From NCBI GenBank assembly GCA_903863935.1, contig CAIPDV010000072.1, positions 1 to 64,000 on the forward strand: 64,000 nucleotides of DNA, read 5' to 3'. Under the pieces are notes generated by a model. It saw only the letters and a program-made list of their open reading frames with translations, was not told the DNA's origin and made no database searches. Both the position numbers and the translations under genes were made by a program. Below are positions 36,562 through 42,733 of this stretch, one piece after another. The DNA is from an uncultured Bacteroidota bacterium (GTDB lineage: Bacteria > Bacteroidota > Bacteroidia > JABEUT01). Every line of letters starts with the position of its first letter. Position 1 is the first letter of the stretch.

Positions 36562-37401
36562 ATGAGTTCAAAAAAGATAAAAGTCGGAAATATTGAATGC
36601 GGAGCAGACCAGTTATTCCTGATATCGGGTCCTTGTGTTATTGAAGATGAATCCATCATGTTCAAGACCGCTGAGAAATTAAAACAAGTAGGCGAAGAAT
36701 TAAAAATACCCATCATTTATAAATCGTCCTTTTTAAAAGATAACCGTAGCGACTTGAAATACTACGATGGACCGGGATTGAAAAAAGGCTTGGAAATGTT
36801 GGCTAAAATAAAAGCGGAATTCGGATTCCCTATTCTTACCGATATCCATTACCCCGATCAGGCAGCACCTGCGGCCGAAGTGTGTGATGTGTTGCAGATA
36901 CCTGCTTACCTATGCATGCAAAGCAGTTTGATGGTGGCAGCGGCAAAAACAGGACGTGTTATAAACATTAAACACGGACAGTTTCTTGCACCGGAAAATA
37001 TGAAGCACCCGGTTAAAAAGTGCACCGACAGCGGCAATGATCAGATTATCCTTACTGAAAGAGGATACACTTTCGGCTATAATGATTTAGTTGTAGACCC
37101 TCGCAGCCTTTACCACTTAAACCAATTGGGCTACCCTGTTGTGTTTGATATTACACATTCCATTCGCAAATACGGCATACCAAGTGCCGATGCAAAAGGC
37201 GGAGCGCGGGAATTTCTTCCTGTGATAAGCCGCGCCGGTGTGGCCTCCGGAGTAGATGGGGTTTTTATTGAAACCCATCCTGAACCTTCCAAAGCCTTGT
37301 GCGATGCTGCAAGCCAGCTTAGTGTTTATGATCTCAAAGCCTTTTTGGAACCGCTGATTGAGATTCATAATACAGAGGTTAAGTATAGGGGGAAATCTTA
37401 A
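36562..37401 (+). CDS. kdsA: 2-dehydro-3-deoxyphosphooctonate aldolase (Kdo-8-P synthase)
   Basis: A 279-residue KdsA. It joins phosphoenolpyruvate and D-arabinose-5-phosphate to make Kdo-8-phosphate, the first committed step to the Kdo of lipid A core. Clear signatures: ISGPCVIEDE (residues 21-30), KSSFLKDNRS, LTDIHYPDQAAPAAEVCDVLQIPA, INIKHGQFLAPENM, FGYNDLVVDPRSL and FIETHPEPSKALCD. The full length is typical. kdsB and kdsD are not in the window; a KdsC-like phosphatase is found at 42041 beside a transaldolase-CBS fusion. Confidence 0.97.
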   Translation: MSSKKIKVGNIECGADQLFLISGPCVIEDESIMFKTAEKLKQVGEELKIPIIYKSSFLKDNRSDLKYYDGPGLKKGLEMLAKIKAEFGFPILTDIHYPDQAAPAAEVCDVLQIPAYLCMQSSLMVAAAKTGRVINIKHGQFLAPENMKHPVKKCTDSGNDQIILTERGYTFGYNDLVVDPRSLYHLNQLGYPVVFDITHSIRKYGIPSADAKGGAREFLPVISRAGVASGVDGVFIETHPEPSKALCDAASQLSVYDLKAFLEPLIEIHNTEVKYRGKS

Positions 37402-37861: not shown

Positions 37862-38104
37862 ATGATAACCGCATCTGAAAGAAAAAAAATAGCGAAAATT
37901 GTGTTAACCACAAAAGATGAGGTTTTTATCCGTAAAATTGAATCGATGATATCCTCTAAGCCTAAAACAGCACAACATAAAAAGAGAAGCGGGGAAATGC
38001 AAGTAACCGAATTTCAAAAATATCTTCTTGAGTGGCCTATCATGTCAAAAGATGAAATGAAGGGAATTAAGGAAAGAGCGAAACGTTTGAATGAATGGAG
38101 ATAA
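37862..38104 (+). CDS. Antitoxin partner of a PIN-domain toxin
   Basis: An 80-residue, mostly hydrophilic protein (SERKKIAKIVLTTKDEVFIRKIESM... ending KGIKERAKRLNEWR) just upstream of a PIN-domain gene, overlapping it by 10 bases. It lacks an obvious AbrB or ribbon-helix-helix domain at the N-terminus, so it is not a textbook VapB; the C-terminal WPIMSKDEMKGI helix could be the toxin-binding part. The call rests on position and size. Confidence 0.65.
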   Translation: MITASERKKIAKIVLTTKDEVFIRKIESMISSKPKTAQHKKRSGEMQVTEFQKYLLEWPIMSKDEMKGIKERAKRLNEWR

Positions 38105-38484
38105 TTTGCCTGGATACAAGTGTGCTAATTAGCCATAAAAGAGCACTCAAAAAAGCAAAATCGGGAACTTTTCTTTTTCATTTGGCACAACAATATCAAT
38201 TTGCTATTACCGTAATTAGTGTATTTGAATTGCTGCGTGGTGATAATAATGATGAGGATAAATTCTGGATGGATTTCTTTTCAAGGGTAGTCATTTTGCC
38301 TTTTGATTTTGAAAGTAGCTCAATAGCCGCCACTATCGACAGGGAACTGATAAAACGGGGCAACAAAATCAAAGTTACTGACCTTATCATTTCTTCCATT
38401 GCCATGCGAAATAAGTTAACCATTGCAACGGAAGATAAAAGAGACTTCACACGTATAAAAAATTTGAAACTTATTCTGCCTTGA
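38095..38484 (+). CDS. PIN-domain toxin (VapC-like ribonuclease)
   Basis: A 129-residue PIN domain with the acidic residues expected: Asp7 in ICLDTSVLI, Glu in VFELLRG (about 43), Asp in KVTDLIISSIA and Asp/Glu near TEDKRDF. VapC enzymes cut tRNA or rRNA when freed from antitoxin. The start ATG at 38095 overlaps the antitoxin gene. The pair separates kdsA from the downstream lipoprotein and is a likely mobile cassette. Confidence 0.85.
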   Translation: MEIICLDTSVLISHKRALKKAKSGTFLFHLAQQYQFAITVISVFELLRGDNNDEDKFWMDFFSRVVILPFDFESSSIAATIDRELIKRGNKIKVTDLIISSIAMRNKLTIATEDKRDFTRIKNLKLILP

Positions 38485-40953: not shown

Positions 40954-41019
40954 AGTTTACAAAGTTCATAATGTAGAAAGTATGAATGAACTTTATAAAC
41001 TTTATGAACTTTATAAACT
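40954..41019 (+). repeat. Leader inverted repeat and AACTTTATAA tandem repeat
   Basis: An 18-base arm (40954-40971) pairs with 41002-41019 with one mismatch; the right side is also a tandem repeat of GAACTTTATAAACTTTAT-like units. It ends 8 bases before ATG 41028. It may be a regulatory hairpin or just a common dispersed microsatellite. Confidence 0.5.
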
Positions 41020-41027
41020 TTACAACT

Positions 41028-42041
41028 ATGGAGCTATATCTTGATTCTGCAAACATGAAGGAAATTGAAGAAGGATTCAAACTTGGTTTCCTCGATGGTT
41101 TAACAACAACCCCAACCTTTATGCAAAAGGAAGGTATTACTGATATTGATGGAACGATAGTTAAGCTGAGTAAAATGGTGCCTGTATTACAAATAGAAGC
41201 ATTAGGTGCGAATGCTGATGAGATAAAGAGGGAAGCATACCGCCAGCTTGAACTGGGATTGGATCCTAAGAAAACCGTTTTCAAAATTCCTGTATCGCTG
41301 GAAGGGGTACGTGCCTGCAAAATATTGCGTAACGATGGCTTGCTTGTAAATGTTCATTTGGTGTATACGCTTCAACAAGCTTACATGGCAATGCATGCAG
41401 GTGCAACCTATGTTTGTCCTTTGGTTGGCCGTTTGCAAGATCAGGGGCACGATGCGCTTACATTGGTAGAACAATGTGTTGATGCAGTGAATTACTATAA
41501 CTACGATACCAAGATCATGTTTAGTTCTGTTCGCCATAATGAACATGTACGGAATGCAATAAATATTGGAGTGCATACAATTACTGTTCCATTGAAAGTA
41601 TTGAAATCACTCACAGAAAATAACTTTACCCAAATTGGAACCGAGCAATTTTTCCGCGATACCCGGATGATGATGGTGAAGGTGAAAGAAGCCATTCGCC
41701 CCGTTAATCCTGTTGTAAATAGCGAAACAAGTATAAAGGATGCCATTGTAAAAATGACTGAATTCGGTTACGGAACGGTTATTGTTACAAATAAAGATAA
41801 CAGTGTTATGGGTGTTTTCACCGATGGTGATTTACGCAGACTTTTACAAAAAGACGGAGAGCATATTCTGAATAAAAAATTAAAAGAATTGGAATATAAA
41901 GCACCTATCAGTATTGATGCAAATGCCATACTGAATGAAGCAGCAGCACTTTTCAAAAAATCGAATGTGGATACCATTATGGTTACGGATGGCGGCAAAC
42001 CGGTGGGAATGCTGGATATTCAGGACTTGAAGAACGACTAA
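41028..42041 (+). CDS. Transaldolase-fold protein fused to a KdsD-type CBS pair
   Basis: A 337-residue protein from ATG 41028; the longer frame starting at 40986 only adds repeat-coded MNFINF residues. Residues 1-225 match the small transaldolase/fructose-6-phosphate aldolase class: LYLDSAN with Asp6, FKIPVSLEG with the Schiff-base Lys86, and MFSSVR with Ser167. By eye against E. coli FsaA, Asn28 is Thr, Thr109 is His110 and Tyr131 is Leu132, so the substrate is probably different. Residues 230-337 are two CBS domains with GVFTDGDLRRLLQK, the hallmark of arabinose-5-phosphate isomerase KdsD. The next gene overlaps by one base and is KdsC-like. The pathway is unknown. Confidence 0.85.
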   Translation: MELYLDSANMKEIEEGFKLGFLDGLTTTPTFMQKEGITDIDGTIVKLSKMVPVLQIEALGANADEIKREAYRQLELGLDPKKTVFKIPVSLEGVRACKILRNDGLLVNVHLVYTLQQAYMAMHAGATYVCPLVGRLQDQGHDALTLVEQCVDAVNYYNYDTKIMFSSVRHNEHVRNAINIGVHTITVPLKVLKSLTENNFTQIGTEQFFRDTRMMMVKVKEAIRPVNPVVNSETSIKDAIVKMTEFGYGTVIVTNKDNSVMGVFTDGDLRRLLQKDGEHILNKKLKELEYKAPISIDANAILNEAAALFKKSNVDTIMVTDGGKPVGMLDIQDLKND

Positions 42042-42733
42042 TGGAAATCGAAGAGGTATTCAACGGCAGATTCCTAACTCCTCCGGCAAATATTCTGGCT
42101 AAGCTGGAGAAAATAAAAGCATATGTTTTCGATTGGGATGGCGTTTTTAACAATGGCCAGAAAGACGAAAATAACACCAGTCTTTTCAATGAAATTGACG
42201 CAATGGGCGTGAATATGCTGCGCTTCAATCATTATAAAAGAAAAGGCGTCATGCCACTCTTTGGAATTATTACCGGTGAACGCAACTCCGCTTCACATTC
42301 TTTCTCCAACAGGGAACACATGGATTTTTGCTACTATAAAATAAAGCACAAAAGCACAGCACTTGAGCATTTATGCAACGAACATAATCTTTCTCCTGAT
42401 GAAATTCTTTTTATGTTCGATGATATTTTAGATTTGGATGTTGCAGCAAAAGTTGGAGTGCGTATGATGGTCTCAAGACCTTCTAATCCATTGCTGATTA
42501 AATATGCGGAAGAAAGGCAATTAATGGATTATCTGACTGAGAATGATGGTAACAAACATGCTGTCAGAGAAGTGGTCGAAATGCTGATTGGCCTTACAGG
42601 ACGATACGATGAAACCATTGCTGACCGCATTGCATATAATAATACTTACCGGGAATTCATTACCAAACGTAACAGTCTTCCAACTGAATATTATACAATA
42701 GACGGGGATAATATCATTCCTAAAAAGCCATAA
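42041..42733 (+). CDS. KdsC-like HAD-superfamily phosphatase
   Basis: A 230-residue HAD enzyme. Motif I is YVFDWDGVF (nucleophile Asp31, acid-base Asp33), followed by GIITGERNSAS (motif II region), HKSTALEHL (motif III Lys) and FMFDDILDLDVAA (motif IV). The order and DxDGV start fit KdsC, which removes phosphate from Kdo-8-phosphate, but this protein is about 50 residues longer at the C-terminus and has an N-terminal extension of 24 residues. It overlaps the transaldolase-CBS gene by one base (stop and start share it), so the two work together. Acting on a Kdo-related or other ulosonic-acid phosphate is inference. Confidence 0.82.
   Translation: MEIEEVFNGRFLTPPANILAKLEKIKAYVFDWDGVFNNGQKDENNTSLFNEIDAMGVNMLRFNHYKRKGVMPLFGIITGERNSASHSFSNREHMDFCYYKIKHKSTALEHLCNEHNLSPDEILFMFDDILDLDVAAKVGVRMMVSRPSNPLLIKYAEERQLMDYLTENDGNKHAVREVVEMLIGLTGRYDETIADRIAYNNTYREFITKRNSLPTEYYTIDGDNIIPKKP

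Follow-up and report, generated by a model that had tools for sequence, protein, structure and literature searches.

Many Bacteroidota that lack the arabinose-5-phosphate isomerase KdsD carry an aldolase fused to the sensor domain of KdsD, which suggests an undescribed route in an essential pathway. Kdo is a core lipopolysaccharide sugar of the outer membrane, and the first committed step of its synthesis is taught as the reaction of a SIS-type isomerase, KdsD. The fusion described here very probably acts as a replacement for KdsD. Its product is likely to be arabinose 5-phosphate (A5P) exactly; given A5P, there are strong grounds for expecting aldol rather than isomerase chemistry. The reading as a whole, in which a Schiff-base aldolase acting through Lys86 stands in for KdsD, supplies A5P to the neighbouring KdsA, and receives feedback through its CBS domains, is favoured with moderate confidence. 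The absence of KdsD, its complementarity with the fusion, the operon, and the kept and lost active sites all come from sequence comparison; from these we infer the product, the substrates, the ligand of the CBS pair, and the substrate of the accompanying HAD phosphatase.

In at least 14 families of Bacteroidia, the KdsD step appears from these data to belong to an enzyme of another class. Should this be confirmed, KdsD is not universal at that step, and a gap in the metabolic reconstruction of these bacteria is closed. The fusion would then be a natural aldolase for A5P, and a clean case of a catalytic domain swapped while the regulatory domain is retained.

An aldolase joined to the KdsD sensor domain

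The window, a stretch of 64,000 nucleotides from an uncultured Bacteroidota bacterium, encodes the fusion on the forward strand at 41028-42041 (337 residues; ATG at 41028, TAA at 42039-42041). Although the open reading frame permits a start at 40986, the start is placed at 41028 because relatives begin at MELYLDSAN. A first-pass annotation of the sequence had recognized a small transaldolase-class aldolase fused to CBS domains of the KdsD type, and family profiles agree. The aldolase domain (TalC/FSA type; 41028..41663, forward strand) matches Pfam TAL_FSA over residues 3-202 with 116 bits, and holds the Schiff-base residue Lys86 along with Thr28, His110, Leu132, Arg135, Ser167, and Arg169. 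The remainder, 41664..42041 on the same strand and including the stop codon, is a KdsD/KpsF-type CBS pair with the motif GVFTDGDLRR (TIGR00393, 68 bits; Pfam, 58 bits). The TIGR00393 match is confined to positions 151-267, the CBS part; the SIS domain is absent. The nearest solved relative of this CBS pair is that of an arabinose 5-phosphate isomerase (4o9k).

The protein can be compared with two known families. With TalC/FSA (TIGR00875, PF00923) it shares the barrel fold, Lys86, Asp6, Ser167, Arg135, and Arg169, but differs in Thr28, His110, and Leu132, in the added CBS pair, and in its TIGR00875 score, 168 bits against a family cut-off of 246. With KdsD/KpsF/GutQ (TIGR00393) it shares the CBS pair, a place adjacent to kdsA, and presumably the product, in a mutually exclusive distribution; it differs in having an aldolase barrel and wholly lacking the SIS isomerase domain. 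An assembly artefact is ruled out as the origin of the fusion, since the genomes of 80 other species also carry the gene. NCBIfam, the PDB, and a literature search yielded no described family that combines such an aldolase with a CBS pair, and the literature search returned neither a transaldolase-CBS fusion nor a KdsD gap in Bacteroidetes. This bears on the question, raised at first pass, of whether the domain pair was already known; the accompanying question about its neighbourhood leads to kdsA, kdsB, kdnA, and kdnB.

The fusion and KdsD exclude each other

The distribution is known within the class Bacteroidia, from a single draw of 198 genomes searched for the fusion, KdsD, and KdsA. KdsA is present in 144 of them: the fusion alone accompanies it in 33, SIS-type KdsD alone in 109, both in none, and neither in two (Fisher p = 1.6e-30 for the exclusion, with shared ancestry ignored). 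In one of these last two (G013) a contig end cuts off the kdsA gene, which belongs to the fusion-type clade; the other (G174) is 80% complete. Five families (f5, f11, f15, f36, and f39) each hold both alternatives, so the exclusion recurs and is not the effect of one lineage. Two complete fusion genomes drawn later (G271 and G364) have KdsD profile matches of the CBS type only, as predicted beforehand. The fusion also occurs without KdsA, in four f3-family genomes and in G153, which is 67% complete and has the fusion at the start of its contig.

The genome from which the window comes, a 3.76-Mb draft with 98% completeness, encodes a separate, ordinary TalC as well as KdsB. A search of it found no SIS-type arabinose-5-phosphate isomerase: only CBS pairs matched the KpsF/KdsD profile strongly. 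A hidden KdsD is ruled out there, the other SIS matches reaching only 20-21 bits. These two weak matches are a 614-residue frame, possibly GlmS, and a 174-residue GmhA-like protein. The latter, a small SIS protein, counts against the main reading.

Separately, about 50 of the 198 genomes have KdsB and no KdsA match at 1e-50 (for example G002, G007, G009, G015, G037, and G044). Neither KdsD nor the fusion occurs in 46 KdsA-less genomes.

A Kdo operon

The 80 relatives place the fusion among Kdo genes: kdsA lies 5' of it in 42, the HAD gene 3' of it in 60, and kdsB likewise 3' in 52. In 22 relatives the gap between kdsA and the fusion is 16-105 bases. The order kdnA-kdnB-kdsA-fusion-HAD-kdsB, a Kdo/8-amino-Kdo operon, is found in 28 of the 80. 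In genomes with KdsD, kdsD often adjoins kdsA, the very slot that the fusion occupies.

KdnA and KdnB have as their best matches the solved 8-amino-Kdo transaminase (5k8b, 425 bits) and the solved Kdo 8-oxidase (5k8c, 418 bits), enzymes of 8-amino-Kdo synthesis in Shewanella (for KdnB, PMC5125639). The likeness to the Shewanella pathway extends to many relatives, in which kdnA and kdnB head the operon, but not to the window's genome, where KdnB was not found. Of the 24 genomes with KdnB among the 198, 21 have the fusion and three have canonical KdsA with KdsD. An obligatory link to 8-amino-Kdo is ruled out, since neither the window's genome nor many of the other fusion genomes have KdnB.

The context of kdsA, kdsB, kdnA, and kdnB, together with the strict complementarity with KdsD, makes Kdo, or Kdo on its way to 8-amino-Kdo, the most likely acid. 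The first-pass annotation had proposed a new route to, or salvage of, a phosphorylated ulosonic acid. Its biosynthetic half is supported; salvage is not, and is rejected because what the module makes good is the lack of a step in biosynthesis.

Altered partners: KdsA and the phosphatase

The first-pass annotation did not mention kdsA. The gene, for Kdo-8-phosphate synthase, lies at 36562-37401, 3.6 kb upstream of the fusion and, like it, on the forward strand; its product passes the TIGR01362 cut-off (330.5 bits against 314). That distance, characteristic of the window's genus, and the location of kdsB elsewhere count against the main reading.

KdsA itself differs in genomes with the fusion. 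In a tree with canonical KdsA from Bacteroidia and from PDB chains that we take to be those of Aquifex, Brucella, and Helicobacter (the labels are our own), the KdsA proteins of fusion genomes fall into a single clade, whose stem is long (0.75 substitutions per site). Comparison of 66 fusion-clade sequences, a few of them fetched twice, with 19 canonical ones revealed seven strict or nearly strict changes: Ala60Asp, Ser67Tyr, Phe116Tyr, Arg119Met, Lys138His, Gln202Arg, and Ser247Cys. Seven other residues are unchanged: Asn61, Arg62, Lys54, Lys59, Lys137, Arg167, and His199. In Neisseria KdsA, Pro110, Phe112, and Leu113 lie in the A5P pocket (PMC6650799); they align to the segment that bears two of the clade changes. 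Five changes (F116Y, R119M, Q202R, K138H, and A60D) are in segments around the A5P pocket, which would be surprising for an enzyme whose substrate is A5P exactly. The pair Arg119Met and Gln202Arg could represent an arginine that has moved, or could be the sign of a new substrate; at position 119, one group of PDB entries for the same enzyme (u15977) has Gly.

The gene after the fusion, at 42041-42733 on the forward strand, encodes a KdsC-like HAD phosphatase of 230 residues, a probable stand-in for KdsC. Its ATG at 42041 overlaps the fusion by one base (TAATG); both the identification and this overlap had been read correctly at first pass, coordinates and frames included. It resembles KdsC (TIGR01670) in its catalytic residues and in sharing an operon with kdsA and kdsB: none of Asp31, Asp33, Lys104, Asp127, and Asp128 varies among 87 relatives, apart from gaps at Asp31 and Asp33 in a single aligned sequence. 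It differs in being longer, in extra conserved carboxyl-terminal positions, in a Trp between the two motif-I Asp residues, and in scoring far under the KdsC family cut-offs (TIGR01670, 38 bits against 107; NF007019, 54 against 208). Canonical KdsC is missing from 17 of 33 fusion genomes and from eight of 109 KdsD genomes, as counted by hand from the genome table (Fisher p = 1.1e-7, shared ancestry ignored), so the HAD protein probably replaces it. It is the likely phosphatase of the pathway, at least in fusion genomes that lack KdsC; the window's genome has a canonical KdsC beside it.

With KdsD, KdsA, and KdsC all different and KdsB not, another phosphorylated intermediate could be conceived. 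The fusion would make some other aldose phosphate, the altered KdsA would add PEP to it, and the HAD protein would dephosphorylate the result, so that a co-inherited set replaces all three steps and Kdo, or a Kdo-like acid, arises by way of neither A5P nor Kdo 8-phosphate; this would be a second, non-homologous entry to the pathway. We consider this unlikely, while giving it more weight than any other alternative. The long stem of the KdsA clade, the strictness of F116Y, R119M, and Q202R, the frequent loss of canonical KdsC, and a KdsB that still scores above its family cut-off are all in its favour. Yet Asn61 and Arg62 of KdsA are invariant, and their Neisseria equivalents contact modelled bisphosphate inhibitors (PMC6650799); the window's KdsA, moreover, still qualifies as a KDO8P synthase by its profile score. 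KdnB, the Kdo 8-oxidase in Shewanella, accompanies both the module and, in three genomes, the canonical enzymes, which suggests the same end product. Finally, two fusion genomes (G084 and G156) retain an additional, canonical KdsA (L133 4606-5415; L134 4812-5636), and SIS-type KdsD was not found in either; A5P therefore appears to be available there.

Active site and proposed chemistry

The aldolase domain was aligned with E. coli FsaA and with the transaldolases of T. maritima and B. subtilis. It retains Asp6, Lys86 (Lys85 of FSA), and Ser167 (Ser166 of FSA), and carries Thr28 for Asn28, His110 for Thr109, and Leu132 for Tyr/Phe131. All six positions, as listed at first pass, are identical in 80 of 80 relatives (76-93% identity), and so cannot be put down to errors of sequencing or alignment. 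Likewise fixed in all 80 are Arg135 and Arg169, whose counterparts in both of these bacterial transaldolases (B. subtilis, T. maritima) are Arg as well. More distant members, down to 53% identity, leave the aldolase residues unchanged in genomes with KdsA. The AlphaFold model of the window's protein, a check proposed at first pass, has a mean pLDDT of 92, and its barrel superposes on solved TalC structures at about 1.5-2 A (target-normalised TM-score about 0.92). The predicted aldolase domain is thus an intact TalC barrel and not a collapsed one.

Asn28 and neighbouring residues hold the additional CH2OH group of dihydroxyacetone, and an enzyme that has lost them would be expected to prefer a donor of two carbons. 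Free glycolaldehyde is not known to be an abundant metabolite, and this counts against the main reading. E. coli FsaA has been used as an A5P aldolase that joins glycolaldehyde to glyceraldehyde 3-phosphate, and TalB F178Y also gives ribose 5-phosphate by the same addition (PMC9947464). On this precedent we propose Schiff-base chemistry with these two substrates. Most likely, a two-carbon glycolaldehyde unit, held as an enamine on Lys86, would be joined to glyceraldehyde 3-phosphate gripped by Arg135 and Arg169. Free glycolaldehyde could be the source of the unit; ribose 5-phosphate is a more plausible one, and its retro-aldol cleavage and re-addition would amount to a net C2 epimerisation. 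KdsA would then add PEP; the HAD protein would strip the phosphate in KdsC's place; and Kdo would pass to KdsB, in some species being first converted to 8-amino-Kdo by KdnB and KdnA. The KdsD-type CBS pair would have a regulatory role, its ligand probably being a late product such as CMP-Kdo. Titles of PDB entries suggest that KdsD CBS pairs bind CMP-Kdo.

A natural loss of the catalytic lysine bears on this scheme. The four f3 genomes with the fusion and no KdsA have Arg or Ser in place of Lys86 and, in most cases, Glu in place of Asp6, yet retain the CBS motif TDGDLRR. These homologues (L113, L114, L115, and L116) look like pseudo-aldolases retained for their CBS part. With kdsA the active site is fixed and without kdsA Lys86 is lost, which argues that the aldolase activity serves KdsA. 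Inactivity of the aldolase domain, which the first-pass annotation had named as one outcome that would undo its reading, applies only to this KdsA-less side branch, where Lys86 is lost.

The barrel might instead be an aldose-ketose isomerase that converts ribulose 5-phosphate to A5P by acid-base catalysis, with His110 as the base; the KdsD reaction would then run on a new scaffold. Such an enzyme would use KdsD's own substrate and make glycolaldehyde unnecessary, and the invariant His110 replaces a Thr that is conserved in the reference transaldolases and FSA. Nevertheless, we regard it as improbable: the aldolase residues Lys86, Asp6, Glu57, and Ser167 are all invariant; the decay of Lys86 once kdsA is lost points to Schiff-base chemistry; and no isomerase of the transaldolase fold was found. 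An ordinary transaldolase or fructose-6-phosphate aldolase with a CBS regulator, near kdsA by coincidence, would share the TalC fold and Lys86 but is rejected as very improbable, given that a normal TalC coexists in the window's genome, that no relative with KdsA keeps Asn28, Thr109, or Phe/Tyr131, and that the fusion co-occurs with KdsA and excludes KdsD.

Sequences between kdsA and the fusion

Many relatives carry PIN-like genes between kdsA and the fusion, often with a small antitoxin-like open reading frame; both were named by eye. Such loci include L013 (7309-7976), L036, L033, and L040. The window has a PIN-like gene, again identified by eye, in the same interval at 38095-38484. Short direct repeats of the type AACTTTATAAACTTTATG occupy positions 40985-41024 of the window, directly 5' of the fusion start.
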